Shown one piece after another: positions 20,188 through 39,762 of a DNA stretch of 47,413 bases (positions are counted from its first letter, which is position 1; each line of letters begins with the position of its first letter). A program made the translations under genes and the position numbers. The stretch is from NCBI GenBank assembly GCA_024644385.1, contig JAHELB010000008.1, positions 1 through 47,413 on the forward strand. The letters run 5' to 3'. The DNA comes from Nitrosopumilaceae archaeon (GTDB lineage Archaea; Thermoproteota; Nitrososphaeria; Nitrososphaerales; Nitrosopumilaceae). The notes beneath the pieces were generated by a model. It saw nothing but the letters and a program-made list of their open reading frames with translations. It had not been told where the DNA came from and made no database searches.

Positions 20188-21939
20188 CTAATCACCAGGA
20201 TTTTTTGGTAAGGTTATTCTAAAAGTGGTGGGATTGTTAAACGCTTCTAATTTTCCCTTATGAGATTCAATTATAGATTTACAGCTAGCAAGACCTAACC
20301 CCGTTCCCTTAATTTTGGTGGTAAACAAAGGATCAAATATTTTTGAAATCATATCTTCAGGAATTCCTTTTCCTGTATCTTGAATTAAAATCACCAAATC
20401 CTCCATTTCTTCGTAGCAACTGACAGTAATACTTCCTAAATTATCACCAATTGCTTGAATTGAATTTGTAATAATATTTTCAAAAACGATTTCAATTTGA
20501 TTGGGATCACAGATTAATTTTATTTCATTAGAGGGAATAAAAATTTTAATATTTTTTGGTTCATGAATTGAATTCCTAGCGTTTTCCAAAATTTCTTGTA
20601 ATGAAACCATTTCATATTTGGGATCTTGTGAACGGACAAAGTCAAGAACATTTTCTACTAAATATTTTATTTTAGAGGCGGCATTATCAATCATATCTAA
20701 TTTCTTCAATTCTTTTTCATCTAGAATTTTGCTTGTTTGTCTCATCACATTTACTGCAGTTTTGATTACTGATAGTGGATTTCTGATGTCGTGAGCCAGA
20801 CGAGATGATAGCTCACCTATTGCAGAAAATCTTTCATTTTTTACAAGATTTTTTTGTGCCTCGGCCAGATTTTTTTGCATTTCATTCACGTCTAAAGCAA
20901 GAGTCCTGATCTCATTACTCCCAGAAATTTCAATTTTTTCTTTTAGTTTCCCTTTTGAAATTTCTTTTGTAGAAAATTGCAATTTTTTAATTGGTTTAGA
21001 AATAGAGTTTGAAACTATCCAAGAACCAAGAACTGCCACAGAAACAGCAATTATAACAGAAATGAAAATGACTAGTTGTATGTAGTTTAATGGTTCCAAG
21101 ACCTCATTTTTGTGTAAATGTATAGTTAATCCCCAGCCTGTTTCTTCGATGAATTTTGTTGCAGCGAAAATCTTTTCTCCATGGTAATCAATTGAATCTG
21201 GAAATAACCCTTGATGTTGCATTACTGAATGAACTATTGGAAGATGTAAATTTTCTTTAGGAATTACCAATGTAGAGGAATCATCATAACGAAGAGGAGT
21301 GATGACTATGATATCCCCATGTTCATTTTTTTTAGCTAAGATTATTTCTCCTTCAGGGGCTGAAGTAAAATCAAGTTGTGAAAATTGATGTAACAAGTCA
21401 CCCTTAGTTTCCATTACCATTACCCCAAGAAAATCATCATTTAATCTCAATGGACCAGATAACTGTAAATTCAATTCCCTGTTAAGATCATAATTTACAT
21501 TTACTTTATTCTCATAATGAGAATTTCTAAATATGGGAGAATTCACAAAACTTTTTCCAAGAATTTTTTCATTTGTAGAAAATAATACCAACCCATTTGA
21601 ATCAATAATATATAATTCGGAAATATCTGGAATTGAAAATTTTGCATCCTCTAAAATTTGTTTAATCTTATCCTGATCTTGAAGATTTGGAGACTCTACA
21701 TAGCTTTCAAGACTCAATCTAAGTTGTGTCCTACTTGTTATTCCATCTAATCTTTCATGATTCCTAGATATGATTTCCGAAATCATTTCTTTTTTTAGAT
21801 TTGTAATAATTGCAAGTTCTTCCAAAATTTCTTTAGTTATCTCTCTTTCTGCAATCCAGAAAGAAAATCCGCCTGAAATTATTAAAATTGGCACGATAAT
21901 TACAATAATTGTTAAGAATATTGAATATTGAATTTTCAA
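20188..21939 (-). CDS. Membrane sensor histidine kinase with Cache-type sensor
   Basis: A 583-residue kinase. Domains in order: TM1 about 8-29; extracellular double-Cache-like sensor about 30-285 (LYIIDSNGLVLFST; FIEETGWGLTIHLHK); TM2 about 286-309; HAMP about 310-362; HisKA with phospho-His H383 in SSRLAHDIRNPLSVIK; HATPase_c with N-box ENIITNSIQAI, G1 DTGKGIPEDM, G2 GTGLGLASCKSI. TTG start directly after the binding-protein stop (TAATTG), so both are made together. It probably phosphorylates the receiver at 19815 or 18306, or both. Confidence 0.93.
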   Translation of the reverse strand: MKIQYSIFLTIIVIIVPILIISGGFSFWIAEREITKEILEELAIITNLKKEMISEIISRNHERLDGITSRTQLRLSLESYVESPNLQDQDKIKQILEDAKFSIPDISELYIIDSNGLVLFSTNEKILGKSFVNSPIFRNSHYENKVNVNYDLNRELNLQLSGPLRLNDDFLGVMVMETKGDLLHQFSQLDFTSAPEGEIILAKKNEHGDIIVITPLRYDDSSTLVIPKENLHLPIVHSVMQHQGLFPDSIDYHGEKIFAATKFIEETGWGLTIHLHKNEVLEPLNYIQLVIFISVIIAVSVAVLGSWIVSNSISKPIKKLQFSTKEISKGKLKEKIEISGSNEIRTLALDVNEMQKNLAEAQKNLVKNERFSAIGELSSRLAHDIRNPLSVIKTAVNVMRQTSKILDEKELKKLDMIDNAASKIKYLVENVLDFVRSQDPKYEMVSLQEILENARNSIHEPKNIKIFIPSNEIKLICDPNQIEIVFENIITNSIQAIGDNLGSITVSCYEEMEDLVILIQDTGKGIPEDMISKIFDPLFTTKIKGTGLGLASCKSIIESHKGKLEAFNNPTTFRITLPKNPGD

Positions 21940-22929
21940 TTATCCAAACCTCTGAAATATTATATTTTCAACATGTTTAGGTATTGTAATTTCAAGTATT
22001 TTGATGGATTCGTTGTTCAATAAAATATGGTCATCCCTTTGGAATTCTGAGCGAATATCAGATGGGTTTCCTCCGTGTAGTATTATTACTGCCTTAATCC
22101 CAGACAAACCTCCTAATAATTTAAAATCAGTAACATTTCCTGCTAGGGCACCAGATTCAATTCCTTCCTTATTACAACTAAATACAGGAGTTTTGGTTTC
22201 TAGTCCAATCTTGATCGAAATTTCTTCTCCTCCGTTTTGAATTAAACTATCACATGCATTGTACAGTACATCAATTTCATTTAGACTTTGTTTAATTTTA
22301 GTTTCAATTTCATCTAAATTTGTCACGGAAATTTTTAATAAATTGATTCCTTTTGATTGAGAATATTTTCTCATTTGATCAAATTGAATTTCCGAGTTAA
22401 TTTCTCCTTGACGATGTAGAAATCCAATTTGTCTGGTTTTGGTAATATCAAAAATTAAGCCTATTTGTTTTTCTACGGAAACAAAATTAGAAGTTCCAAC
22501 TAAATTGTTCCCTGAAGATTCATAGCTTTCAATAATATTTGCTTTGACAGGATAAGAAACTACAGAAAAGACTATTGGAATTTCTTGTGTCATTTCTTTA
22601 GCTATCAAGGTACCAGTAGTGGTTTGAGAATAGATTAAGTTTACATCATTATCAATAAATTCTTGAATTATTTCGCGATATTTGGTTTTTTCACCATTAG
22701 CGGTTTTTTCAAAATATTTAACATTTAATCCCTCTTTGAATCCATATTCTTCCAGTGTTTCTTTGAATCCTTCAGTGTTTTCTTGGAAACTTTTACTATC
22801 TATCCATTTAGCAATTCCAATTTTTATTAATTCATTCTGATTCCCAATTTCCGTTTGAGCAGTGGTAAGGTTATCATTTAATCCTAAAAGTAGGGTAAAT
22901 CCAAATATCAATGCAATTTTTAATTTCAC
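21940..22929 (-). CDS. Periplasmic (ABC_sub_bind family) substrate-binding protein
   Basis: A 329-residue exported protein. A signal peptide spans residues 1-25 (KIALIFGFTLLLGL, then TTAQ), followed by a type I periplasmic-binding fold: IKIGIAKWIDSKSFQENTEGF, ANGEKTKYREIIQEFI, IPIVFSVVSYPVKANII and NVTDFKLLGGL match the ABC_sub_bind pattern. No permease or ATPase lies nearby; it is stop-to-start adjacent to a histidine kinase. It most likely presents a ligand to the kinase's Cache sensor rather than feeding a transporter. GTG start. Confidence 0.85.
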   Translation of the reverse strand: MKLKIALIFGFTLLLGLNDNLTTAQTEIGNQNELIKIGIAKWIDSKSFQENTEGFKETLEEYGFKEGLNVKYFEKTANGEKTKYREIIQEFIDNDVNLIYSQTTTGTLIAKEMTQEIPIVFSVVSYPVKANIIESYESSGNNLVGTSNFVSVEKQIGLIFDITKTRQIGFLHRQGEINSEIQFDQMRKYSQSKGINLLKISVTNLDEIETKIKQSLNEIDVLYNACDSLIQNGGEEISIKIGLETKTPVFSCNKEGIESGALAGNVTDFKLLGGLSGIKAVIILHGGNPSDIRSEFQRDDHILLNNESIKILEITIPKHVENIIFQRFG

Positions 22930-25072: not shown

Positions 25073-25864
25073 TTAGATTTCCTTCCCACAGTGAGGACAA
25101 TGCCTTGTTTCTTGTCTTTTTTTACGTAACTCTTCGGTAAATGCGGAGGCCATGATTCCTGTTGGAATTGCATAAACTGCAATTCCTATAACTGCTACAC
25201 CTGCAGCAATTAATTTTCCTGGGATAGTGATGGGATAAACGTCGCCATAACCAATAGTTGTCAATGTGACAATTCCCCACCACATTGCTGCAGGAATACT
25301 AGAAAACACCAGTGGTTGTGCTTCATGTTCTGCATGAAACATCAAACTGGATGCAAAAATTAACACTATAAAGAGGATAAAAAAAGCAACAGCCAAATCA
25401 CCAGCTTTTGCTTTAAAAACCACACCTAATGTTTGCATGGGTTCTGAATATCTAGCAAGTTTGAATAATCTAAATAATCTCAAAAGTCGAATTATTCTTA
25501 CGAATCTTACATCAGTTACCACAAAGGGTAAAAAGAACGGTAAGATGGCAGCTAAATCTACCAACATCATAGGGGCAAACAAAACTCTAATTCTAGGGTA
25601 TTTGGAATTTTGATATTTTGGGTTTAATTTAGAAACTATTATTCTTCCTGCATACTCTATAGTAAAAATAATGATTGAAAAGATTTCAAAGGGGGTAAAT
25701 AAATAACCATATTCATCCAAGACGGTTTCTTCGGTTTCGATTATCACAACAAGAACATTTATTGCAATTAAAGTAATGATGAAAATTTGAAATGTTTTTG
25801 TAATTTTGTCATTAGTTACTCCCTCTAGAATTTCATATGTTCGTTGTAGAGCATGGTTTGCCAT
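25073..25864 (-). CDS. Voltage-gated-like potassium channel
   Basis: A 263-residue six-helix channel subunit. S1-S3 lie at about 23-45, 56-78 and 94-115. S4 has Arg every third residue (R120, R123, R126, R129, R132, K135 in VRFVRIIRLLRLFRLFK). The pore helix MWWGIVTLTTIGYGD carries the K+ filter TIGYGD (203-208); S6 follows with the flexible AIPTGIM. The short cytosolic tail ends in CPHCGKEI, one CxxC that may join Zn across subunits. Last gene of a three-gene cation operon, nine bases after the CorA-like stop. Controls K+ flux or membrane potential; inference. Confidence 0.93.
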   Translation of the reverse strand: MANHALQRTYEILEGVTNDKITKTFQIFIITLIAINVLVVIIETEETVLDEYGYLFTPFEIFSIIIFTIEYAGRIIVSKLNPKYQNSKYPRIRVLFAPMMLVDLAAILPFFLPFVVTDVRFVRIIRLLRLFRLFKLARYSEPMQTLGVVFKAKAGDLAVAFFILFIVLIFASSLMFHAEHEAQPLVFSSIPAAMWWGIVTLTTIGYGDVYPITIPGKLIAAGVAVIGIAVYAIPTGIMASAFTEELRKKRQETRHCPHCGKEI

Positions 25865-25873
25865 AAATACTTC

Positions 25874-27520
25874 TTACATCCACTGTTTTTTTCGGAACCA
25901 CATTATCATAAAAATCACAATAATTATCATGACAATGATCATGACAAAGTAGCTTCCTTCCCATGCCAACTCTGGAATGTATTCAAAATTTGTCCCGTAA
26001 ACTCCAGCTATGAATGTAATTGGAATAAATATACTGGCAATTATAGTAAGAGTCTTCATGATCTCATTCATTCTATTGCTAACACTAGAAAGGTAGGTAT
26101 CCTTCATACCTCCAACCAAATCCCGTAAACCTTCGATGGTATCAATTATTTGGACAATGTGATTATAGGTATCTCTAAGGTAGGTTTTTGTATCATCAGC
26201 AACCAATGCAGAATGACTGCGTTGTAAACTGTCAATTACCTCTCGAGCTGGCCACATGGATTTTCTCAACAAGATCATTTGATGTTTCAATGCTTGAAGG
26301 GTTTGTAAGGTATTTGGACCAGGATTTACCATTAACTCCTCTTCTAAATTTTCTGTTATTTCCCCAATTTGTTCAAGAACCAAAAAATAGCTATCAATAA
26401 TAGCATCTAGTAATGTGTATGCAAGATAATCCGTTTTCCTTTTCCTAATACTACCCACGTTTTCCCTTAGCCTTATACGAATTTTATCGAAAAAATCTTC
26501 TTTTATTTCCTGAAACGTTACTAGATGATTTTCCGCAATAATGAAGGATATTTGTTCTAACTCAATTTTTCCCTTTTCGTGATTAAAATGAGGCATTTTT
26601 AACATTAGGTGGATATAGTCTTCAGAAATTTCTATCAAAGGCCTCAATTCGGTATTCATTATATTTGCTTGATGTAAGCTGTGTAAACCAAATTCTGTAC
26701 CAAATTGTTCAATAATATTTGCATCATGAATTCCTACAACATTAATCCAAGAAACATTAGGTTTGTTTTTAGATTCTAAACAAGCCTCTATGGATGCATC
26801 CTTAGTTTCACAAATATTTTTTTCGTCATATTCAAACAGATCTATTTGAATTTTATCTACCTTCTTTTCTCCAACGTGCACTAATTCGCCTGGTCTAAGG
26901 CCAATAGTATCGGCAATGGTTGTGCCTTTTGGTTTGGTTTTTTTTATTATTTTAGAAAACCGTGAAAAATCGTGCAACCCAATTTCTTGGGTAAATTCCG
27001 AAACTTTGGAAGTTTTGCCAACCACTCCAATTATAACAAATCCTGCAATAATAGAAAATATTAGGCTGATTGTCAATGGACCGAAATCTCCAATTGCTGC
27101 CGCTTGATAGATTGCCAGAACATCAGCAGGAGTGTTAACTTTAACGATAGACCCAATAACCAAATCGATTAAAAAGAATAGAAACGAAATAACTGCTCCG
27201 GTAACAATTGCAGTTACTGCTGTAATTTTTTGAGGTATGTTAATGTCTTTTTCCTGTTTGTAGGGATAAAGATATTTTTTATTTTTTATAATTACTAAAG
27301 CAATGACTGTAATAATTATAGTTGAAATTATCCACCAAGCAATAAACCATATCCCATTAGCAGAATCAATCTGCTCAATTCCGGAAATTAAATCTTGTAT
27401 ATTTCCTGTCAAGGGTAATGATAAAAGTGAAGTGGCCACAACAACAAAAATCTGATAAACAAAGGCAAACAAAAATCCTAAAACCAGTCGATTTGCAAGA
27501 ATTCCAATTTGTTCTTTCAC
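25874..27520 (-). CDS. CorA-like divalent cation transporter with N-terminal membrane domain
   Basis: A 548-residue protein. The C-terminal about 330 residues are CorA-like: cytosolic alpha/beta funnel (HDANIIEQFGTEFGLHSLHQANIMN, HLMLKMPHF), long stalk helix, TM (LTIIASIFIPITFIAGVYG), signature region 508-512, then a last TM and Lys-rich tail. The family signature GMN reads GTN here (YGTNFEYIPE). The N-terminal 190 residues have four hydrophobic helices (about 9-35, 55-78, 98-122, 147-167) not found in ordinary CorA. GTG start. Spacing to the neighbours is 17 and 9 bases, so operonic. Confidence 0.88.
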   Translation of the reverse strand: MKEQIGILANRLVLGFLFAFVYQIFVVVATSLLSLPLTGNIQDLISGIEQIDSANGIWFIAWWIISTIIITVIALVIIKNKKYLYPYKQEKDINIPQKITAVTAIVTGAVISFLFFLIDLVIGSIVKVNTPADVLAIYQAAAIGDFGPLTISLIFSIIAGFVIIGVVGKTSKVSEFTQEIGLHDFSRFSKIIKKTKPKGTTIADTIGLRPGELVHVGEKKVDKIQIDLFEYDEKNICETKDASIEACLESKNKPNVSWINVVGIHDANIIEQFGTEFGLHSLHQANIMNTELRPLIEISEDYIHLMLKMPHFNHEKGKIELEQISFIIAENHLVTFQEIKEDFFDKIRIRLRENVGSIRKRKTDYLAYTLLDAIIDSYFLVLEQIGEITENLEEELMVNPGPNTLQTLQALKHQMILLRKSMWPAREVIDSLQRSHSALVADDTKTYLRDTYNHIVQIIDTIEGLRDLVGGMKDTYLSSVSNRMNEIMKTLTIIASIFIPITFIAGVYGTNFEYIPELAWEGSYFVMIIVMIIIVIFMIMWFRKKQWM

Positions 27521-27537
27521 TATGTCACCCCTTCTGA

Positions 27538-28785
27538 CTATACTATTTTTTGGATTCTTATTTGTGTAGGCCTGTTTTTTTCTACCTGCTCAACAGTAAT
27601 TTTCAAAGAATTCAAGGTTATTACATCAGATGGTTTGGGGATATCTTGTAGTTTTTCATGTAAAAGACCACTTAAAGTTGAATAATCATCACCATATGCA
27701 ATTTCTGTCTTAAAATAATCGTTAATTAGATCAATTTCTATATCACCATCAGTAATTATGGTATTCGAGTCTACTTGGGTAAAGGGTGATTTTTTGGGAT
27801 CCGTTTCATCATAAATTTCTCCGACAATTTCTTCAATGAGATCCTCAAGGGTTACTAACCCTTCTACCCCTCCAAATTCATCTACTACGATAGCCATGTG
27901 CATATTTTTTGTTTGCATTTGCCTTAGAAGACTACTCATTTGTTTCTCCTGAGAAACATAGATTGGTTCTCTTACCAATTCGCCTACCATTTTTTGCTGT
28001 AAATTTGTGTCTTTGAGATGTTTTAGTATATCTCGAACATGCAAAACTCCAACGATATCATCCAGGTCTTTGCCATAAATTGGTATTCTAGAATGTCCAC
28101 TTTGATGAATTTTATCAGCAGCTTTTTCAAGAGAAAGATCCTTTTGTAAACTAAACATCTTGGTCCTTGGAACCATAACAGCACGAATTACACTATCATT
28201 GAACTCCAATGCACCACGTAACAAATCCCGTTCGTGCTTTTCAAGGGCTTGATCTCGGTGGCCTTGATCAATAATTCCACCAATTTCTTCTCCTGTTAAG
28301 GCAGGAGGGAAATAAGAACTTCCAGTTACCTTGATAATTCCACGAGAAATTTTTTCTAATACCCATACTGCTGGGTAGAACACATAGCTGAATGTTAGCA
28401 AAACTCTGCTAAACCTAAGGGCAACTTTTGAAGCATTTGCATTACAGTAGGTTTTTGGGGTAACCTCTCCAAAAATTATTATTAAAAAAGTCATAATCCC
28501 TACTGCGATTCCTAAACCATTTTCTCCAAAAATTGCAATTGAGACAACAGTTGCCAATGATGCAGAACCAATGTTTACAAGATTGTTTCCAAGGTTTACA
28601 CTTGACATCATCCATCCAGGATTTGATTTTAGTTTTTGTAGAGATTTTGAACCTTTTACCTTGTCTTTTACTAACCGTTCAACTGTTGCTTGGCTTGTTC
28701 CCACCAAGGCAACCTCAAGACCGCTAAAAAACCCGGATAAACCGATTAAAGCAGCAAGAGCAGCTAATTCATATTCTAGCGCCAT
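27538..28785 (-). CDS. CNNM/CorC-like cation transporter (DUF21-CBS-CorC_HlyC), copy 1
   Basis: A 415-residue membrane protein. The N-terminal DUF21 domain (about 5-185) has three or four helices and FFSGLEVALVGTS, VNLGNNLVNIGSA, IIFGEVTPKTYCN. A CBS pair (about 205-330) shows GHSRIPIYGKDLDDIVGVLHVRD and MAIVVDEFGGVEGLVTLEDLIEEIVGEI. The CorC_HlyC domain (about 340-415) has DGDIEIDLINDYF. The family mediates Mg2+/Na+ transport or efflux. First gene of the operon with CorA-like and K+ channel genes. A second, shorter copy lies at 39908. Confidence 0.92.
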   Translation of the reverse strand: MALEYELAALAALIGLSGFFSGLEVALVGTSQATVERLVKDKVKGSKSLQKLKSNPGWMMSSVNLGNNLVNIGSASLATVVSIAIFGENGLGIAVGIMTFLIIIFGEVTPKTYCNANASKVALRFSRVLLTFSYVFYPAVWVLEKISRGIIKVTGSSYFPPALTGEEIGGIIDQGHRDQALEKHERDLLRGALEFNDSVIRAVMVPRTKMFSLQKDLSLEKAADKIHQSGHSRIPIYGKDLDDIVGVLHVRDILKHLKDTNLQQKMVGELVREPIYVSQEKQMSSLLRQMQTKNMHMAIVVDEFGGVEGLVTLEDLIEEIVGEIYDETDPKKSPFTQVDSNTIITDGDIEIDLINDYFKTEIAYGDDYSTLSGLLHEKLQDIPKPSDVITLNSLKITVEQVEKNRPTQIRIQKIV

Positions 28786-30599: not shown

Positions 30600-30658
30600 A
30601 AAATAAACCCACTTAATCTGGTCAAAAAAAAATTTCATGAAATATACTTTAGGTTGAC

Positions 30659-30666
30659 TTTAAATA
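30659..30666 (+). promoter_or_regulatory. TATA box for beta-helix protein 1
   Basis: TTTAAATA begins 28 bases before the ATG at 30687, consistent with a leaderless transcript. It also supports that ATG over an upstream in-frame start. Confidence 0.5.
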
Positions 30667-30683
30667 GATATAATTTGATTAAA

Positions 30684-30747
30684 TGTATGGCCGATGTAGA
30701 CCCAAGCGCAGTAATTGGTACTGGAGTTAAGATGGAAGATAGTACTG
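30684..30747. repeat. 64-bp direct repeat, copy A
   Basis: Identical over 64 bases to 31156-31219, starting three bases before the ATG. After one mismatch another seven bases match. It includes the first 20 codons of the paralogous beta-helix genes. Confidence 0.95.
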
Positions 30748-31049
30748 AGATAGAAAAAGAGGTCAAGGTAGGTAATGATTGTGTTTTTGGTAAGGATGTA
30801 ACCATTGAGAAAAAGTCTGTAATAGGAACTAACGTGACAGTTGGTGAGGGATCTGTAATTGGGAAGAAAGGTAATGTTGGTAATGATAGCACCCTAGGCA
30901 AAAAAGTGAAAATAGAGAAAAAGGTTGTAGTAGGCAGTAAAGTTACTATTGAAGATGGTGTAGTAATAGAAAAAAACGCTACAGTGTTAGATGGTGCAAC
31001 CGTCCCTTCTGGTTCTATAATTAAAGCAGAACATACGTTTCCAGAATAA
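30687..31049 (+). CDS. Left-handed beta-helix (hexapeptide-repeat) protein 1
   Basis: A 120-residue protein built almost only from hexapeptide repeats (SAVIGTGVKMEDSTEI, VKVGNDCVFGKDVTIE, VIGTNVTVGEGSVIG), so about five to six coils of a left-handed beta-helix. It has no extra domain for a transferase and lacks the His triad of gamma carbonic anhydrases. It may form a trimeric binding or scaffold protein. It ends KAEHTFPE, about 13 residues shorter than its neighbour. Starting at ATG 30687, with the TATA box at -28. Confidence 0.8.
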   Translation: MADVDPSAVIGTGVKMEDSTEIEKEVKVGNDCVFGKDVTIEKKSVIGTNVTVGEGSVIGKKGNVGNDSTLGKKVKIEKKVVVGSKVTIEDGVVIEKNATVLDGATVPSGSIIKAEHTFPE

Positions 31050-31131
31050 ATGTATAAGAATCGACAAAATTAAATTTAATAATTCCGTACAAAATTTGGA
31101 TATAAAATAAAGTGGTCTCTTTACATCATCC

Positions 31132-31140
31132 TTAAATATA
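31132..31140 (+). promoter_or_regulatory. TATA box for beta-helix protein 2
   Basis: TTAAATATA begins 27 bases before the ATG at 31159, so copy 2 has its own promoter and is not only read through from copy 1. Confidence 0.45.
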
Positions 31141-31155
31141 CACAATTCAATTTAT

Positions 31156-31219
31156 TGTATGGCCGATGTAGACCCAAGCGCAGTAATTGGTACTGGAGTT
31201 AAGATGGAAGATAGTACTG
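31156..31219. repeat. 64-bp direct repeat, copy B
   Basis: Identical to 30684-30747. The identity covers the N-terminal coding region only; upstream promoter sequence and the rest of the genes differ. Confidence 0.95.
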
Positions 31220-31560
31220 TGATAGAAGGAGGAGCACAAATTGGTAATGATTGTGTTTTAGGTAAAAGAGTGGTAATTGAGAAACATGCCATTATAGGCA
31301 ACAAGGTTACCATGGGTGAACACTGTGTGATCGAAAGAAAAGTCAATGTAGGTAATGATTGTGTCTTTGGAAAAGAGGTTGTAATAGAGGGACACGCAGT
31401 CGTAGGTAATGGAGTCAAAATAGGAGATGATGTGGTACTAGAAAAAGACACAAAGGTACCAGATGGAGCAGATATACCAACTGGCACTGTGCTTTCAGAC
31501 GGACATACTTATCCAGATGGAACTACACTAAAGGCAAAATATTACAAGCACGATAAGTAA
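31159..31560 (+). CDS. Left-handed beta-helix (hexapeptide-repeat) protein 2
   Basis: A 133-residue tandem paralogue of the preceding gene. Repeats read IEGGAQIGNDCVLGKRVVIE, AIIGNKVTMGEHCVIE, VNVGNDCVFGKEVVIE, VVGNGVKIGDDVVLE. Three His lie within turns (KHAIIG, GEHCVI, GHAVVG) and might bind metal, but not in the carbonic anhydrase arrangement. C-terminal DGHTYPDGT and a Lys/Tyr-rich tail follow. Long open frames on the opposite strand are a by-product of the repeats. Confidence 0.82.
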   Translation: MADVDPSAVIGTGVKMEDSTVIEGGAQIGNDCVLGKRVVIEKHAIIGNKVTMGEHCVIERKVNVGNDCVFGKEVVIEGHAVVGNGVKIGDDVVLEKDTKVPDGADIPTGTVLSDGHTYPDGTTLKAKYYKHDK

Positions 31561-31729: not shown

Positions 31730-33367
31730 GTGATTAGAGTAGACCTAGAAAAAATTGAATCTTCATTTATCCCTAGAATAGATAAAAAATGTTCAGTAGC
31801 TAAACATGGAATGGTTTCAACTGCCTTTCCTGATGCAACAAAGGCTGGAGTTGAAATGCTAAAAAAGGGCGGAAATGCAATTGACGCGGCATGTGCGGCA
31901 GCTATTGCCCTTGGTGTATGTGAACCCCAGTCATCTGGTCTTGGAGGTCAATCCCTAGCACTACTACACATTAATGGAAAGACAATTGCTCTGGACGGTT
32001 CTAGTCGTGCCCCATCACTTGCGCACGCCTCATTTTTTGAAAAAAAATCCACTCGATTTGTAGGTTACAAAGCTTCAACTGTTCCAAGCACTCCTGCAAC
32101 AATTGGATATCTTAATGAGCATTATGGAAGATTGGATTGGCCAACCATAATTGAACCTGCCATCAGAATTGCAAAAGGAGGTTATAGAATTACAGAATTA
32201 CAACATAAAATACAGAAACAAAATTTGAACAAATTTCTTCGAGTAAAATCAAGATCAGGTGCTAAATATTTTCTCAAAGATGGGTTGGTACCTTATGACG
32301 TAGGTGATTTGTTTGTACAAGACGATTTGGCTGAACTGCTAAAACACATTAGTTCGTATGGTTATAGAACCTTTTATCATGGAATGATTGCAAAAAAAAT
32401 TAATGACGATATGAGAATAAACGAAGGTTATCTTCATTCAGATGATCTTGCACTAATTCCTGAGCCCATAGAAAGAAAACCACTAACCAGGTCATATCGT
32501 GGTATTCAAATCGTTACTATGCCCCCTCCAACTGCAGGCAGAACCCTACTTCTTGTTTTAATGATATTAAACAATGTTTCTTCGGAATTTATTCAAAGCA
32601 AAAAACCAGACTCTTATCATTTTGTCGCAGAAACTTTTCGAAAAGCTCTTTCTCATAGATCGCAAAGACCATACGATCCAAACACCTATCATCAAACACG
32701 AGATAACACACATCTTAGTACAAATTTTGCAAGGACTCTTGCAGGTTCTGTAAGGAACATAGTTGATCCTTCTCTTCCCTTAGAAGAACCATACAAGGAC
32801 CCCGATGAGACTACACATCTCTCAGTAATGGATGATGAAGGAAATGCAATTGGCATTACTCAATCAATAGAACTTTCTTATGGTTCCAAGGCAGCAGCTG
32901 AAGGTCTAGGATTTTTGTATAATAACTATATGTCCTGCTATGAATTGAAAAATGCCAATCACCCTTTCTATTTACGACCAAATGCAGTCCCTTGGACATC
33001 CGTTTGTCCAACATTGGTAAATTATCAAGACAAACCATTAATGATAGTTGGAAGTCCAGGAAGTTCCAGGATATTTTCAGTAGTTAGTCATTTTCTTTCA
33101 AGAATTATAGATGGAAATAACTCCATTGATATGGCAATGCTGAAGCCCAGGATTCATTGTTCCTTAGATGGGACTATTAGTATAGAGGAGGGTTTTGCAA
33201 ATAACGAAATACCTGCACATTTAGAAAAACTTGGTTATCAAATTGACATAAGGGAAAGATATTCCTTCTTTCTAGGTGCAATCCATGCTGTGCTCAAATC
33301 CCAAACAAGAGAGGGTTTTCAAGGAGTTGCCGAAATAAGGCGTGATGGAAGTGCCGAAGGACTTTAA
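31730..33367 (+). CDS. Gamma-glutamyltransferase-like Ntn hydrolase 1
   Basis: A 545-residue protein with the full GGT fold: KHGMVSTAFPDATKAGVEML, GNAIDAACAAAIALGV, LGGQSLALLH, and the autoprocessing site TTHLSVMDDEGNAIGITQS with predicted nucleophile T361. The oxyanion loop is GSPGSSRIFS. No signal peptide, so cytosolic. Typical GGTs transfer or hydrolyse gamma-glutamyl groups; here the usual glutamate-binding 'REMAP' and 'NNQMDDF' blocks read GSSRAP and NNYMSCY, so the substrate may differ. GTG start. First of three paralogues in 8 kb. Confidence 0.9.
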   Translation: MIRVDLEKIESSFIPRIDKKCSVAKHGMVSTAFPDATKAGVEMLKKGGNAIDAACAAAIALGVCEPQSSGLGGQSLALLHINGKTIALDGSSRAPSLAHASFFEKKSTRFVGYKASTVPSTPATIGYLNEHYGRLDWPTIIEPAIRIAKGGYRITELQHKIQKQNLNKFLRVKSRSGAKYFLKDGLVPYDVGDLFVQDDLAELLKHISSYGYRTFYHGMIAKKINDDMRINEGYLHSDDLALIPEPIERKPLTRSYRGIQIVTMPPPTAGRTLLLVLMILNNVSSEFIQSKKPDSYHFVAETFRKALSHRSQRPYDPNTYHQTRDNTHLSTNFARTLAGSVRNIVDPSLPLEEPYKDPDETTHLSVMDDEGNAIGITQSIELSYGSKAAAEGLGFLYNNYMSCYELKNANHPFYLRPNAVPWTSVCPTLVNYQDKPLMIVGSPGSSRIFSVVSHFLSRIIDGNNSIDMAMLKPRIHCSLDGTISIEEGFANNEIPAHLEKLGYQIDIRERYSFFLGAIHAVLKSQTREGFQGVAEIRRDGSAEGL

Positions 33368-33413
33368 CAGAGGAGCTTGAAATTCACATTAAATATTTTA
33401 TCAGAAATACCAC

Positions 33414-35582
33414 TTATTTTTCTGCACATTTGAACATGACAGATGCCAATAAAGCAGCACGCTCTACAATACTATCATGAATAATGTGTTCCTTGGCAGA
33501 TCTATAGTTGCCTCCTAGGGGACCAAACCCATCTAGAGCGGGTAGTTCTGTTGGAACATTGCTAATATCAGAAGATGTAATTTGGCAGTGTTTTTTAATT
33601 TTTATGTCATGTTTTTTAGCAAGATCTTCAACAAGCGTATAGAATTTGGAATCCGATGGTTCTTCTAAAACTGGAGGTCTAGTTTGAATGTTGTTTATTG
33701 CAACCTCGAGTTTTTTAAAACCTTTTTCTCTTTTTTTCATTATAGTTTGAATTTTAGATTCCAATAATTCTCCTAGTTTTTCTGTTTTGTAGCTACATGT
33801 CAAAGATAAGGTGGCATAGTTTGGTGAATGACCATGTGATCCTTGGGCAATAACAGATGTTGTACTTAACCGATAATCTTTTTCGTCTCTCGAAATTTTT
33901 TCAATTGCGGATAATTTTTTTCCTAATACAGGTATTATTCCATGTATATCTGATGTAGATTGACCATTTTGAGTTGTAAACCTTATTGCATAATCCCTGC
34001 GTCCATAACAAGTAGTAATTATTCCACCATCTATATTCCCTGATTTTAAACCAATTATGTAACGTGATTTTTTAGAATAAAATTCAACAAATTTCTTGCT
34101 AAACCTCCCCCCTAAACTGTCATCCGAGGTAAGGAGAATGCCACATTTAATTTTCCTTAGCTTTTTTGCAAATCGCAGTGAATGGACTGCACCTAACATA
34201 ACTGTCAACCCACCTTTACTTTCAGCTATTCCTGTACCAATAATTTGATCGCCATTTTCATAAAAATTTATCATATCATGTGGTCCATAGTGGGTATCCA
34301 TATGAGAAATTATCAATACATCGTTTTCTTGGTCTGAGTGATTTTGAAAGTAATGGAAATCACCCACGTCCAATTGTTTATGAATATTATCATTAAATCC
34401 TAGATATTTCAATCGTTTAGCAATTTGTGAACCTAACTGGTTTACATTATCAATGTTGTATACATGTGTATTTAGATTTACAAAACCCTTCAAAGTTTCT
34501 TTTAGACTTTGGAGGTGGCCTCTAAGATATGTTCTACTTACAACACGCAATGGTTGGGTCAGGTCAACTTCATCTTCTTTATGTTGGACAGCAGAACCAA
34601 AATATCTAATCACAGCAACATCTAGAATTTTATTGATTAAAGAATCATAGGTATGTCCAGCAGTTTGTGCAGCATAATAAAATGAGCCACCAGTTCCAAG
34701 ACTAGCCATAGAGTTTAATTCAAGAATGTAAAGATTCTCATCTTTATCCATTCGAAAATCAACTCTAGTATAATCATTTAGTCCTAAAGCAGAAAATGCC
34801 TGCATACACATTTGTTTCATTTCTTCTGTTTTTTCTTTTGATAATTTTGCTGGACATGTTTTATCAACACCACCTTTTTTCTTTTTGTCAGAGATAGTTT
34901 GTATTTGATCTGGATTATCTAAATTAATTTCGACAATAGGAAGAACCTCTATGTTAGGACTATTTCCAATTACCCCTACAGCAAATTCACGTCCTGAAAT
35001 GAACTGTTCTACTAAAATGTCTTGTTGGAATTTTTCAATTTGAACTTTAACTGCAGCCCTGAGATCATCCCAATTATCAACAACTTCCATTCCCATGGAG
35101 GTTGATTCTAGTTTTGGTTTTACAATTACAGGAAATATTAAATCATCATATTTGTCCTCAGGGGTTCGGAAGACCCAAAATCCAGGCGTCGGTATTTTAT
35201 TTTTCTGTAAAATAATCTTGGTCATTACCTTATCTTGAACTATTGCATGTCCGGCAGGACCTGAACCTATGTAAGGAATTCCAAGCATTTCCATCATTGC
35301 AGGAACATGTGTGTATCTATTTTGACCCTGTATCCCATATGCCATGTTGAATACCATGCCAGGGTTCTCACCAGCAACTACTTTTGGCATGAATTCTTTC
35401 AATTCATCAGCAAGGTGAATGTCTCCTTCAACAACCTTTACGGTATGACCTCCCTTTTCTAGTGCTCTTGCAACCCTCTCTACAGCTCTTGAACTATAAT
35501 GTTCTTTTGTCGTCATTCCAAATACGTTGATTACATCATTTGGATCTATTGAGGTTTCGTTGTAAATTAAAGCAATTTTCAA
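33414..35582 (-). CDS. ATP-grasp ligase (Ddl-like) fused to M20-like peptidase domain
   Basis: A 722-residue cytosolic two-domain protein. Residues 1-330 are a D-Ala-D-Ala-ligase-like ATP-grasp: MAYGIQGQNRYTHVPAMMEM, IPYIGSGPAGHAIVQDK, VIVKPKLESTSMGME, VEQFISGREFAVGV, and the Mg2+ block YILELNSMASLGTGG (285-299). Residues about 340-722 are M20/ArgE-CPG2-like: SHMDTHYG (H427, D429), GIAESKGG, LLTSDDSLGG, IGLKSGN, KEHIIHDS. Several M20 ligand positions are changed. It is flanked by GGT-like genes on the opposite strand. It likely joins an amino acid to an amine or acid; archaea of this type lack peptidoglycan, so the substrate is not D-Ala-D-Ala for a wall. Confidence 0.85.
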   Translation of the reverse strand: MKIALIYNETSIDPNDVINVFGMTTKEHYSSRAVERVARALEKGGHTVKVVEGDIHLADELKEFMPKVVAGENPGMVFNMAYGIQGQNRYTHVPAMMEMLGIPYIGSGPAGHAIVQDKVMTKIILQKNKIPTPGFWVFRTPEDKYDDLIFPVIVKPKLESTSMGMEVVDNWDDLRAAVKVQIEKFQQDILVEQFISGREFAVGVIGNSPNIEVLPIVEINLDNPDQIQTISDKKKKGGVDKTCPAKLSKEKTEEMKQMCMQAFSALGLNDYTRVDFRMDKDENLYILELNSMASLGTGGSFYYAAQTAGHTYDSLINKILDVAVIRYFGSAVQHKEDEVDLTQPLRVVSRTYLRGHLQSLKETLKGFVNLNTHVYNIDNVNQLGSQIAKRLKYLGFNDNIHKQLDVGDFHYFQNHSDQENDVLIISHMDTHYGPHDMINFYENGDQIIGTGIAESKGGLTVMLGAVHSLRFAKKLRKIKCGILLTSDDSLGGRFSKKFVEFYSKKSRYIIGLKSGNIDGGIITTCYGRRDYAIRFTTQNGQSTSDIHGIIPVLGKKLSAIEKISRDEKDYRLSTTSVIAQGSHGHSPNYATLSLTCSYKTEKLGELLESKIQTIMKKREKGFKKLEVAINNIQTRPPVLEEPSDSKFYTLVEDLAKKHDIKIKKHCQITSSDISNVPTELPALDGFGPLGGNYRSAKEHIIHDSIVERAALLASVMFKCAEK

Positions 35583-35683
35583 AACTTTGATTATTAAAAC
35601 ACGGTCAGATTATTAAACATATTTAATTTGGTTGATTTTTTTGTTCCTGCTGTTCTCAAAGACTGCATGAAAGTTAATTATTT

Positions 35684-37372
35684 TTGTTTGATAAAATTTA
35701 CTTATTATATAGAGATTCTCTAAAACCCACAGGTGAGGTTATTTTAAACATTAGTTCAATAGAAAAAACATTCAAACCAACTTCAGATCACAAAGGTGCC
35801 GTTGCAAAACATGGGATGGTTGCATCTGCGTTTCCCGATGCCACAAAGGCTGGATTAGAGATGCTAAAAAAAGATGGAAACGCAGTTGATGCTGCATGTG
35901 CTACGGCTCTTGCACTGGGTGTTTGTGAACCACAAGCATCAGGGATTGGAGGACAATCATATGCAATTCTAAATTTTGAAGGAAAAGTTTTTTGTGTGGA
36001 TGGTTCAAGTCGTGCACCATCAAAGGCTAATTCTAATACAATGAGGAAAAAGCAGGATAGAGTTTTGGGTTATCGTGCCTCAACAGTTCCAAGTACGCTG
36101 GCACTCATTGGCTTTCTGAACAAACGTTATGGGAGATTAGATTGGTCAACTATAGTAAAGCCTTCTATTAGAATTGCAAAAAGAGGCTACAAGATCACAA
36201 AACTACAACATGATTCCCAAGTTAACAAGTTAGAAGATTTTTTGAAAATTAAATCTCAATCGGGTGCAAAATACTTTCTAAAGGACGGGGAGGTTCCATA
36301 TGATATTGGAGATCGTTTTATCCAAGAAGACTTAGCTCATACTCTTTCTCATATATCTAAAAATGGTTGGAATTCGTTTTACCGTGGTATGATAGCAAAT
36401 CAAATTGATAAAGATATGACAAACAACAATGGACTTTTACGTGCTGAAGACTTGTCACTAATTCCTGAACCAATCGTAAGAAAACCTTTACACAGAAATT
36501 ACAGAGGAGTTAGCGTTTTTGTACCTCCGCCACCTACTGCAGGTGCAACATTGTTGCTAGTCCTTATGATGATGAGTCATTTTCCTTCAAAGTTTTTAAC
36601 GGGGACAAATTTGGAGTCATTTCATTTTATGTCAGAAATATATAGAAAAGCTTTTTTGCACAGAACACAAAGACCATTTGATCCAGATACTTATCATCAA
36701 ACCACAGATGAAAATCATTTGTCTAGACATTTTGCATATTCACTTGCAAAATCGATAAGAAATACAGTTGATCCCACCTTACCACTAAAAAATCCAGAAC
36801 AAATTGAAGATACAACTCATCTTTCTGTAATGGATGATGAGGGAAATGCAGTGGGAATTACACAATCTATTGAATTAGTATATGGTTCCAAAGTAGCAGC
36901 TGATGATCTTGGATTTTTGTATAATAATTACATGGCAGCATATGAATATGAAAACGTAAATCATCCTTATTTTATGAGACCCAACACGGTACCATGGACC
37001 TCTGTGTCTCCAGCTATTTTGTTTAATAATAATAAACTGTGGATGGTGGTTGGCAGTCCTGGAAGTGAAAGAATATTTTCCACCGTAGGTGGGTTTCTTT
37101 CTGCAGTTATCGATAACGACATGGATATTAGAAAAGCAATGCTAAAACCTAGATTTCATTGTTCTATAGGGGGAACAATCAGTCTTGAGGCAGAACGTTT
37201 TGATCCAAAAATTATAGAGTATTTGGATAAACTAACTTACAAGGTACAACATAAGGAGCCGTTTGCATTTTACCATGGAGCGATTCATGCTGTAATGAAA
37301 TGCCAGAGTATGGATGGATTTCAGGGAGTGGCCGAAGCAAGACGCGATGGAACTGCAGGAGGAGTGAATTGA
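35684..37372 (+). CDS. Gamma-glutamyltransferase-like Ntn hydrolase 2
   Basis: Up to 562 residues from the TTG at 35684. The paralogues begin MLNLEKIEKSF or VDLEKIESSF, aligning with ILNISSIEKTF that starts at codon ATT 35741, 19 codons downstream and behind AGGTGAGG. The true start may therefore be a non-canonical ATT. Conserved GGT features: KHGMVASAFPDATKAGLEML, GIGGQSYAILN, DGSSRAPS, autoprocessing TTHLSVMDDEGNAVGITQS, oxyanion loop GSPGSERIFS, lid NNYMAAYE without the Asp pair. Cytosolic. Its TGA overlaps the next gene's TTG, so it is co-translated with the FGase-like enzyme. Confidence 0.88.
   Translation: MFDKIYLLYRDSLKPTGEVILNISSIEKTFKPTSDHKGAVAKHGMVASAFPDATKAGLEMLKKDGNAVDAACATALALGVCEPQASGIGGQSYAILNFEGKVFCVDGSSRAPSKANSNTMRKKQDRVLGYRASTVPSTLALIGFLNKRYGRLDWSTIVKPSIRIAKRGYKITKLQHDSQVNKLEDFLKIKSQSGAKYFLKDGEVPYDIGDRFIQEDLAHTLSHISKNGWNSFYRGMIANQIDKDMTNNNGLLRAEDLSLIPEPIVRKPLHRNYRGVSVFVPPPPTAGATLLLVLMMMSHFPSKFLTGTNLESFHFMSEIYRKAFLHRTQRPFDPDTYHQTTDENHLSRHFAYSLAKSIRNTVDPTLPLKNPEQIEDTTHLSVMDDEGNAVGITQSIELVYGSKVAADDLGFLYNNYMAAYEYENVNHPYFMRPNTVPWTSVSPAILFNNNKLWMVVGSPGSERIFSTVGGFLSAVIDNDMDIRKAMLKPRFHCSIGGTISLEAERFDPKIIEYLDKLTYKVQHKEPFAFYHGAIHAVMKCQSMDGFQGVAEARRDGTAGGVN
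35702..35711 (+). promoter_or_regulatory. TATA box candidate inside GGT-like 2 5' region
   Basis: TTATTATATA lies 30-39 bases before codon ATT 35741. If used, the transcript begins near 35732, after the apparent upstream TTG start, making the annotated N-terminal extension untranslated. Confidence 0.35.
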
Positions 37373-38139
37373 CAAAATTACCTGTTTTGTTATCTATTCC
37401 TCATGGTGGAACTCAGAGACCTCCTGAACTTGATAGCCATTTGTCTATAACTGATAAAGATTTGTTTGATGACTCTGATCCTTTTGTAATGGAATTATAC
37501 GATTTAGGCCAAAAGGTAGAAGGCGTAGTTAAAACAAACATTGCCAGATCTTTTGTTGATCTTAATAGATCATTGCAAGACCTCCCCCCACAAAATCCAG
37601 ATGGTCTGATAAAAAGTTCCACATGCTATCAAAAACCTATCTACAAAAAAGGACATGAACCTGATGAATCTTTGACAAATGTTCTAATTGAGATGTATTA
37701 CAAACCATATCACCGATCAATTCAAAAGAGTATTCACGATCTAGATTTACAACTTTGTTTGGATTGTCATTCTATGGCTTCTGTAGCTCCAAACATTTCC
37801 CCTGATGGAGGAAAAAAGAAACGACCACAGTTTTGTTTGTCAAACCAAGATGGCAAAACTTGTTCACAAGAAATGTTAGAACTTTTAACGTCATGCATCT
37901 CGGAATCATTTGAGATTGACAAAAAAGATATTTTCCAAAACAACCCCTTTCATGGAGGATATATTACCAAAACTTATGGAAACAATCCGATTCCTTGGAT
38001 TCAAATTGAGATGAATCGAGACATGTATCTATCCAAATCATGGTTTGATGATGTCACTTTATCAATAGATTCCTCTCGTCTTAGGCAGTTGAACAAACAA
38101 TTCGAGGATTCCCTAAATCTATTTTTTTCAAATTTATAA
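37369..38139 (+). CDS. N-formylglutamate amidohydrolase-like (FGase family)
   Basis: A 256-residue enzyme of the HutG-type FGase family (zinc amidohydrolase). Motifs: LLSIPHGGTQRPPEL (IPHGG, about 8-14), NIARSFVDLNRS, LCLDCHSMAS (metal/active His), NPFHGGYITKTYGNNP, IPWIQIEMNRDMYL. Family members release formate from N-formylglutamate or cleave similar acylated amino acids. The TTG at 37369 overlaps the GGT-like 2 stop (TTGA), so the two share a messenger. No histidine-degradation genes are near, arguing against a Hut role. Its 3' end overlaps GGT-like 3 by 6 bases. Confidence 0.87.
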   Translation: MTKLPVLLSIPHGGTQRPPELDSHLSITDKDLFDDSDPFVMELYDLGQKVEGVVKTNIARSFVDLNRSLQDLPPQNPDGLIKSSTCYQKPIYKKGHEPDESLTNVLIEMYYKPYHRSIQKSIHDLDLQLCLDCHSMASVAPNISPDGGKKKRPQFCLSNQDGKTCSQEMLELLTSCISESFEIDKKDIFQNNPFHGGYITKTYGNNPIPWIQIEMNRDMYLSKSWFDDVTLSIDSSRLRQLNKQFEDSLNLFFSNL

Positions 38140-39762
38140 TCCCACCGCTATTCCATCGCGTCTAATTTCTGCCATTCCTTGAAATCCTTTGGAACTTTGT
38201 TTTTTAATTACAGCATGAATAGCTCCATGGAAATACGAGTATGGTTCCTTTAGTTCAATTTTGTATCCCAACTCAGCCAAATATGGGACTATATTACCAT
38301 CGAATCGATCCCTTTCAAGAGAAACTATTCCATCCACGGAACAATGTATTCGAGGTTTATCCATCGCTTCATTTGGACTAGAGCCAGAATCTACAATAGA
38401 GGATATGAATTGGGCAATAACAGTAGGAATTCGGTCACTTCCAGGCGTACCAAGAGTCATCCACGGGTTTTTTTTATTAAAAATTATTGCAGGAGCAACT
38501 GATGTCCAAGGAGTGGTATTTGGTCGTAAATAATGTGGGTAGTTGATATTTTCAAATTCAAATGAGGACATGTAGCTATTGAATAAAAACCCCAAACCTT
38601 CAGCTGCTACTTTGGAACCATATACTAATTCAATAGATTGTGTAATTCCCACTGCATTTCCCTCATCATCCATTACAGAAAGATGAGTTGTATCTTCGTC
38701 GTGGAATTTTATTTTATTCGTAGGATTGAGTTTAATACCATCGATTATAGACTCGGATAAATGTTTGAGAAAAGTTTTGTCATGCAGTAACTTGTCATCA
38801 AATTGTTTGTATGTAGATACATCATAGGGGCGCTGGGTTCTAAAAGCAAGTGATCTCTTGAATGTTTCAACCAAATAATGATAAAATTCTTCTTTTTTAT
38901 TTTTAATAATACTTAATGGAAGTTGGTTTAACAGCATCAAAATCAACAACAATATTCTTCCAACTGCAGGAGGAGGAAATGTTTTAACAATTAAGTTTCT
39001 ATATCTTCCGACCAATGGTTCACGTTCAATTATTTTTGGAATCATTACCAAGTCGTCCTCGCGGAGTAGACCCTTATTTGTTCTCATATCGGCATCAATA
39101 ATTTTGGGAATTTTCCCATGATAGAATGATTTGTATCCATTGTCAGCTAGGTATAACAGCATTTCTGCTAAATCCTCTTGGACAAAAAGATCTTTTGGCT
39201 CGTAAGGAATAATTCCCTCTTTAAGAAAATATTTTGCTCCAGATTTTGATTCGATTTTTGTAAAATTATCTAGTTCACGTTGTTGAAGATCATGTTGTAG
39301 TTGTGTAATCCGGTATCCTTTTTTAGCAATTTTTATTGCGGGTTTGATAATATCAGCCCATTCAAGATTTCCATATTTCTCATTCAAAAATCCCATTACT
39401 GCGACCGTGCTTGGGACTGTTGTGGCTTTGTAACCCAACGACCTGTGCATTTCTATTTTAAATCTACTAGGAACTGCCAAAGAGGGGGATCTAGTAGAAC
39501 CATCTATGCAAATTGTTTTCCCATCAACATGAATAATTCCCATGGATTGTCCTCCAATACCAGAGGCTTGGGGCTCACATACTCCTAATGCCAAGGCAGT
39601 TGCACAGGCAGCATCAACTGCATTTCCGCCTTTTTTTAGCATTTCAACTCCAGCCTTTGAGGCGTTTGGGAATGCTGATGATACCATTCCTTTTTTTGAT
39701 TCTGAAAATTTTTGGTCTTTACTGGCTTGAAAAGATTTTTCGATCTTTTCTAAATTTAGCAT
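38134..39762 (-). CDS. Gamma-glutamyltransferase-like Ntn hydrolase 3
   Basis: A 542-residue paralogue, ATG start (MLNLEKIEKSF). Key sites: SKKGMVSSAFPNASKAGVEM, GIGGQSMGIIHV, DGSTRSPS, autoprocessing TTHLSVMDDEGNAVGITQS, oxyanion GTPGSDRIPT, lid NSYMSSFE. It lacks a signal peptide. It is convergent with the FGase-like gene and shares a 6-base tail overlap. Likely maturation is self-cleavage before the first Thr of TTH into large and small chains. Substrate unknown. Confidence 0.9.
   Translation of the reverse strand: MLNLEKIEKSFQASKDQKFSESKKGMVSSAFPNASKAGVEMLKKGGNAVDAACATALALGVCEPQASGIGGQSMGIIHVDGKTICIDGSTRSPSLAVPSRFKIEMHRSLGYKATTVPSTVAVMGFLNEKYGNLEWADIIKPAIKIAKKGYRITQLQHDLQQRELDNFTKIESKSGAKYFLKEGIIPYEPKDLFVQEDLAEMLLYLADNGYKSFYHGKIPKIIDADMRTNKGLLREDDLVMIPKIIEREPLVGRYRNLIVKTFPPPAVGRILLLILMLLNQLPLSIIKNKKEEFYHYLVETFKRSLAFRTQRPYDVSTYKQFDDKLLHDKTFLKHLSESIIDGIKLNPTNKIKFHDEDTTHLSVMDDEGNAVGITQSIELVYGSKVAAEGLGFLFNSYMSSFEFENINYPHYLRPNTTPWTSVAPAIIFNKKNPWMTLGTPGSDRIPTVIAQFISSIVDSGSSPNEAMDKPRIHCSVDGIVSLERDRFDGNIVPYLAELGYKIELKEPYSYFHGAIHAVIKKQSSKGFQGMAEIRRDGIAVGL

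Follow-up and report, generated by a model that had tools for sequence, protein, structure and literature searches.

A conserved Nitrosopumilaceae operon pairing a Ddl-type ATP-grasp fusion with GGT-fold and FGase hydrolases and ion-transport genes: a possible beta-amino-acid amide solute module

Gene clusters that bring amidoligases together with hydrolases in metabolite pathways are said to have been described by Iyer et al. in 2009. Here we describe a cluster of this kind from a Nitrosopumilaceae archaeon, at positions 31730-39762 of a 47,413-nucleotide stretch (the window; contig JAHELB010000008.1, our contig C9, of the 1.56 Mb genome GCA_024644385.1). It encodes a fusion protein, FUS, in which a D-alanine--D-alanine ligase (Ddl)-type ATP-grasp ligase is joined to an M20-fold domain, together with three GGT-fold N-terminal nucleophile (Ntn) hydrolases and an FGase-family amidohydrolase. 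Like the amidoligase-hydrolase clusters, it unites an ATP-grasp ligase with amide hydrolases within a single conserved operon, and it is a variant of this known type of metabolite operon. It differs, in a comparison made by citation only, in its partner set, its pseudo-M20 fusion, and its link to ion transport.

Two other known systems come close. In methanogens, the N-epsilon-acetyl-beta-lysine pathway (ablA-ablB) makes a beta-amino-acid osmolyte from a KamA-family product. The archaeal operon may be similar in this respect, and distant relatives of the FUS ligase adjoin ablA-type genes elsewhere in the phylum. However, the window cluster has neither a lysine-type aminomutase nor an acetyltransferase, and the ATP-grasp ligase, GGT, and FGase are additional. 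The second is a Bradyrhizobium operon on plasmid pBb323S2b, with genes for KamA, GGT, a seven-transmembrane (7TM) protein, and an ATP-grasp ligase in that order, which holds the best plasmid match of both the ligase half (43% identity) and the GGTs (36-37%). Its GGT is the closest that we found (37% identical) and shares residue changes with the archaeal proteins. In contrast to the window cluster, this operon lacks the M20 domain and FGase and includes KamA and the 7TM protein.

The genomic system, that is, its gene content, conserved operon, and co-occurrence, is well supported. In the window, FUS (33414-35582, reverse strand) matches Dala_Dala_lig_C and Peptidase_M20 in Pfam; GGT1 (31730-33367, forward), GGT2 (35684-37372, forward), and GGT3 (38134-39762, reverse) match G_glu_transpept (E values of 4e-104, 1e-109, and 5e-106); and the remaining gene (37369-38139, forward) matches FGase (PF05013). 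GGT2 ends with TGA at 37370-37372 and FGase starts with TTG at 37369, so that the two genes overlap by TTGA (37369-37372), with AGGAGG just upstream. An ATG at 37300, listed as the FGase start, is an artifact; relatives begin at the equivalent of 37369. None of the five window proteins has an N-terminal signal-like hydrophobic stretch. A preliminary description of this DNA had proposed these five genes, the coupling at 37369, and the absence of signal peptides, and Pfam and the sequence bear it out on all three.

The same description envisaged a linked cytosolic system, for which conservation of the gene neighborhood would be the key test. We compared gene order in 27 Nitrosopumilaceae genomes picked for carrying a GGT or the fusion. 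FUS is present in all 27 and an FGase match in 26, and FGase directly follows a GGT wherever contigs permit. The core unit consists of FUS, a GGT-fold hydrolase, and FGase, and the overlap between the latter two is usually 4 nt. Some loci have the compact order FUS-GGT-FGase, whose genes are spaced by -4 to +23 (L097, L098, L101, and L102); L081 has CNNM and CorA genes downstream in addition. Others have an extended order, FUS-(CNNM)-CorA-K+ channel-GGT-FGase (L082, L084, L085, L086, L088, L089, L091, L094, and L107); the joins are -4, -4, 3, 13, and -4 in L084 (genome G121), which we take to be N. maritimus SCM1. In other genomes, FUS lies ∼4-13 kb from the GGT-FGase pair or on another contig. 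The FUS/GGT/FGase neighborhood is strongly conserved, with the genes adjacent in many rearranged contexts, well beyond chance. The idea of a linked system has thus stood, and ion transport can be added to it. The ion-transport partners were named by Pfam on the window copies, which lie together on the reverse strand (25073-28785): an Ion_trans voltage-gated-type cation channel (the K+ channel, 25073-25864), a CorA-like Mg2+ transporter with an additional N-terminal membrane region (25874-27520), and a CNNM/CorC-type transporter with CBS and CorC_HlyC domains (27538-28785). In the gene maps of many Nitrosopumilus genomes, their counterparts stand inside the operon.

Across the family, FUS occurs in 51 of 250 genomes, and in 38 of the 131 (∼29%) that are at least 90% complete, hereafter good genomes. 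All 35 GGT-positive good genomes are also FUS positive (Fisher P = 1e-28), as are 34 of 35 with FGase (P = 8e-26) and 23 of 25 with the K+ channel (P = 1.4e-13). These P values carry no phylogenetic correction; the rearranged gene orders make a stronger case for linkage. A neighbor is missing from three or four FUS-positive genomes, and short contigs are at least part of the cause. In a sample of 349 genomes from the phylum, the full fusion is confined to Nitrosopumilaceae. An enrichment with FUS is also seen for ectoine synthase (7 of 9 among good genomes; P = 0.002, uncorrected), and the two genes are ∼10 kb apart on contig C51 of genome G204.

The two halves of FUS have fared differently. 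Its ligase half (approximately residues 1-335, with Dala_Dala_lig_C at 145-320) shares with D-alanine--D-alanine ligase the ATP-grasp fold and the residues that bind ATP, Mg, and phosphate, since K97, K144, E180, K215, R255, D257, E270, and N272 of DdlB are all kept and invariant. Unlike that enzyme, FUS carries a fused domain and scores below family cutoffs (158.1 bits against NCBIfam TIGR01205, with a cutoff of 245.65), and the omega-loop Tyr216 is not conserved. The DdlB triad Ser150-Glu187-Tyr216 is altered to Thr161, Glu199, and Lys, Ile, Leu, Met, or Val at 216. In another family of the order, a Ddl-type ATP-grasp is fused to a methyltransferase (L113:4941-6905).

The C-terminal half (approximately residues 345-722, with Peptidase_M20 at 424-716) is a pseudo-hydrolase domain resembling carboxypeptidase G2 (CPG2). 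AlphaFold2 (AF2) modeled the ATP-grasp half poorly, with a shallow alignment, and the M20 half alone was used; its predicted local distance difference test (pLDDT) values are mostly 75-95, and its top Foldseek match is CPG2, with a template modeling (TM) score of ∼0.7 by target length. However, substitutions set the domain apart from CPG2 at most of the metal ligands and at the catalytic Glu. In the alignment, His112 and Asp114 are kept, whereas Asp141 is changed to Glu, the catalytic Glu175 to Asp, and Glu176 to Ser; by motif position in the family alignment, Glu200 is replaced by an invariant Lys and His385 by Arg. The same degenerate site occurs in the divergent copies of genomes G348, G340, and G416. 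The M20 label first given to this half is right for the fold, by Pfam, AF2, and Foldseek, but wrong for the metallopeptidase site, and the active ligase-peptidase fusion that it implied is rejected, as metal ligands are mostly gone in every copy, the deepest branches included. From the alignments, we infer that the M20 half is probably a conserved nonhydrolytic binding domain and not a peptidase. The FUS frame of G348, a higher-GC relative (L138:4405-7188), runs to 927 codons; its N terminus is much extended, and it contains inserts of low complexity.

The window GGTs share with E. coli Ggt the fold and the processing-site region, and the catalytic Thr (TTH) at the processing site is kept in all three and in every Nitrosopumilaceae copy. 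The preliminary description had allowed that they might be inactive; with this Thr in place, they do not look like obvious pseudoenzymes. They differ from Ggt in having no signal peptide and in scoring below the TIGR00066 equivalog cutoff of 357.85 (339.7, 355.5, and 336.6 bits for GGT1, GGT2, and GGT3, respectively). They also differ at the residues that bind the alpha-amino and alpha-carboxyl groups of the gamma-glutamyl moiety: E. coli Arg114, Asn411, Gln430, and Asp433 are replaced in all Nitrosopumilaceae copies by Ser, Glu, Tyr, and Ala, Cys, or Ser, respectively. At the same positions, the Bradyrhizobium GGT has His, Gln, Tyr, and Thr, and canonical GGTs of other Nitrososphaerota retain the Arg and Asp. 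It is therefore unlikely that the Nitrosopumilaceae proteins recognize gamma-glutamyl groups in the E. coli manner. The ordinary gamma-glutamyl chemistry proposed at the outset does not fit these sites, and a canonical gamma-glutamyl cycle is likewise weakened as a candidate.

Nor is the presence of three GGTs a design feature of the system. It is a local expansion, because most genomes carry one GGT and some of the additional copies are broken (G146, G256, and G357). GGT2 is the FGase-coupled copy. In the tree, GGT1 (paralogue 2) is orthologous to the copy in G146, with 87% identity, and GGT3 is a divergent paralogue (no. 3), 54% identical to GGT2 and convergent with FGase. The broken copies stand beside intact systems (L090 and L099; G357:C21), with paralogues decaying in Nitrosopumilus.

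The FGase protein has the PF05013 fold of HutG and keeps the motifs HGG, CHSM, and E-N-R. Unlike HutG, it scores low, at 118 bits against TIGR02017 (equivalog cutoff, 278.75), and no hut gene recurs as a partner in the loci that were fetched. A HutG role in histidine degradation is rejected on these two grounds.

Clues to the substrate come from relatives of the ligase. The trees, which have long branches, place the Bradyrhizobium GGT as the sister group of the Nitrosopumilaceae GGTs (100/99) and the rhizobial ligases as that of FUS (97/96). Within the phylum but outside Nitrosopumilaceae, the ligase relative adjoins an ablA-type lysine 2,3-aminomutase gene in 15 of 16 loci (13 of 14 fetched, plus G056 and G039); gene maps show relatives in G017, G058, and G041 with no adjacent ablA-type gene. 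The KamA and ablA neighbors suggest that this ligase group may use beta-amino acids. Loci with adjacent ablA-type and Ddl-like ATP-grasp genes (L156-L159, L161-L169, L109, and L110) often have a second divergent ATP-grasp gene, and two have a GNAT gene; a beta-lysine peptide pathway is possible there. The Bradyrhizobium KamA is of a non-lysine kind: it has Arg at the position of lysine 2,3-aminomutase Asp293 and lacks the Asp330 motif. The same Arg is found in the Nitrosopumilaceae KamA copies that were read, and the KamA gene of the window genome is on another contig.

Published physiology offers a candidate substrate. Beta-glutamate reaches 730 mM in N. maritimus SCM1, where it is the top identified metabolite by abundance (PMC8269262), and methanogens accumulate K+ with beta-glutamate and then, at higher salt, zwitterionic beta-amino solutes (PMC1224877). 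Our literature search on the cluster and on Nmar locus tags found no paper describing the operon or assigning genes to the beta-glutamate pool. We tentatively propose, as the likeliest reading though one that falls short of an expectation, that the operon is an accessory module of marine and estuarine ammonia-oxidizing archaea for an amide solute of a beta-amino acid, perhaps beta-glutamate, tied to ion balance; substrates, product, direction of flow, and osmotic role are all inferred. FUS would use ATP to form an amide from two amino-acid-like substrates, one of them most likely a beta-amino acid and plausibly beta-glutamate. The CPG2-like domain, its di-metal site lost, would more likely hold or sense a carboxylate ligand than cut one. 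The GGT-fold enzyme may cut or transfer the acyl group of the product by means other than canonical gamma-glutamyl recognition, and FGase may take an acyl group off an acidic amino acid, so that the two would return the pool to amino acids. Because K+-channel, CorA, and CNNM genes are in the operon, the product may be part of an osmotic or counter-ion balance in which, for example, K+/beta-glutamate is exchanged for a less charged solute. Of the osmolyte, cofactor tail, or thiol first suggested as the product, only the osmolyte has gained ground, from the ion-transport partners, the KamA links, and the published beta-glutamate pool; nothing was gained for the other two.

A bolder form of the proposal is doubtful: that FUS represents a new family of beta-amino-acid amide ligases and makes a dipeptide-like beta-glutamate osmolyte, that GGT and FGase break it down alongside the K+ channel and Mg2+ transporters of the operon, and that relatives across the phylum do likewise with beta-lysine. 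Ammonia-oxidizing archaea are among the most abundant marine cells. If the proposal is true, the operon offers a directly testable connection from a dominant solute to adaptation to salt and to niches in estuaries as opposed to the open ocean, and it puts Ddl-type ligases and GGT-fold hydrolases to a new use. Even with another chemistry, the operon, three to six genes long and present in a model archaeon that is in culture, makes a well-defined target.

Several observations weigh against a beta-amino-acid solute. Nearly all Nitrosopumilaceae carry an R-type KamA (27 of 29 tested family genomes, whether or not FUS is present), and it is located outside the cluster. It scores 80 bits against a glutamate 2,3-aminomutase cutoff of 650, and we do not claim that activity for it. 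In methanogens, nuclear magnetic resonance (NMR) spoke against an aminomutase source of beta-glutamate (PMC1224877). Most rhizobial ligase copies adjoin neither KamA nor GGT, and the genes near rhizobial KamA copies belong to the aspartate pathway or encode EctB and ectoine synthase; the substrate of these KamA copies may therefore not be glutamate. The GGT and ligase trees contain long branches and only a few bacterial sequences, several genomes carry the core without the K+ channel, and the Fisher tests take no account of shared ancestry.

The rhizobial plasmids were rejected as a single conserved system: GGT, KamA, and ligase occur together in Bradyrhizobium only, Mesorhizobium AR10 has KamA next to the ligase, and in most others the ligase has neither KamA nor GGT beside it. 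No bacterial plasmid was seen to carry all three core genes; the FGase matches were hutG genes of the ordinary kind, and the 7TM gene of Bradyrhizobium does not encode an FGase. On rhizobial symbiotic plasmids (L134, L135, and L137), an R-type KamA gene lies near genes for an L-amino-acid-ligase-like ATP-grasp, aspartate-semialdehyde dehydrogenase, EctB, or ectoine synthase. A Cetobacterium plasmid (L124) has two GGT genes with succinylglutamate desuccinylase and pgsB/C/W poly-gamma-glutamate genes.

The operon could instead serve salvage: GGT and FGase would obtain nitrogen by hydrolyzing acyl- and gamma-glutamyl-amino acids that had been scavenged or damaged, and the role of the ligase would be confined to storing or detoxifying the freed amino acid. 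N-formylglutamate deformylase is a member of the FGase family, hydrolases outnumber the ligase 2:1, and the window genome has additional GGT copies. However, the gene maps of the fetched neighborhoods show recurring ion-transport genes but no recurring importer for peptides or amino acids. The GGTs also lack the gamma-glutamyl recognition residues, and a catabolic unit leaves the near-perfect retention of an ATP-spending FUS unexplained. We consider salvage unlikely.

The ion-transport genes could also be read as a metal-ion module, in which the product would chelate Mg2+ or another cation as a dipeptide-like ligand and would be handled in concert with CorA and CNNM. These genes are direct operon neighbors, with 4-nt overlaps in L084. 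Nevertheless, the core stands without adjacent ion genes in L097, L098, L101, and L102, the K+ channel fits osmotic balance as much as metals, and no exporter was seen near the operon, which makes a chelator quite unlikely.

A protein or peptide tag, added by the ligase and removed by the hydrolases as in RimK/RimB, is very unlikely. The Bradyrhizobium operon includes an RloB-like 7TM protein, and the Pseudomonas rlo operon, where an ATP-grasp gene is likewise accompanied by one for a 7TM protein of this type, affects hypo-osmotic tolerance (PMC12239564). The FUS ATP-grasp, though, belongs to the small-molecule Ddl type and does not resemble RimK, small molecules are the normal targets of GGT-fold enzymes, and no conserved small peptide gene was found near the operon. 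Least credible, and highly improbable, is the gamma-glutamyl thiol or cofactor-tail (e.g., F420) pathway of the preliminary description, which GGT family membership and an amide ligase would suit, but for which the GGT pocket is not gamma-glutamyl-like, no cofactor gene recurs among the partners of the fetched loci, and the FUS frequency among good genomes is too low to be expected of a core cofactor.

Two further features lie near the cluster or elsewhere in the window. An ABC-type substrate-binding protein gene adjoins a histidine kinase gene at 20188-22929. Small hexapeptide-repeat (left-handed beta-helix) proteins are encoded in tandem at 30654-31560, and such genes recur near GGT and FUS in L086, L088, L090, and L104.

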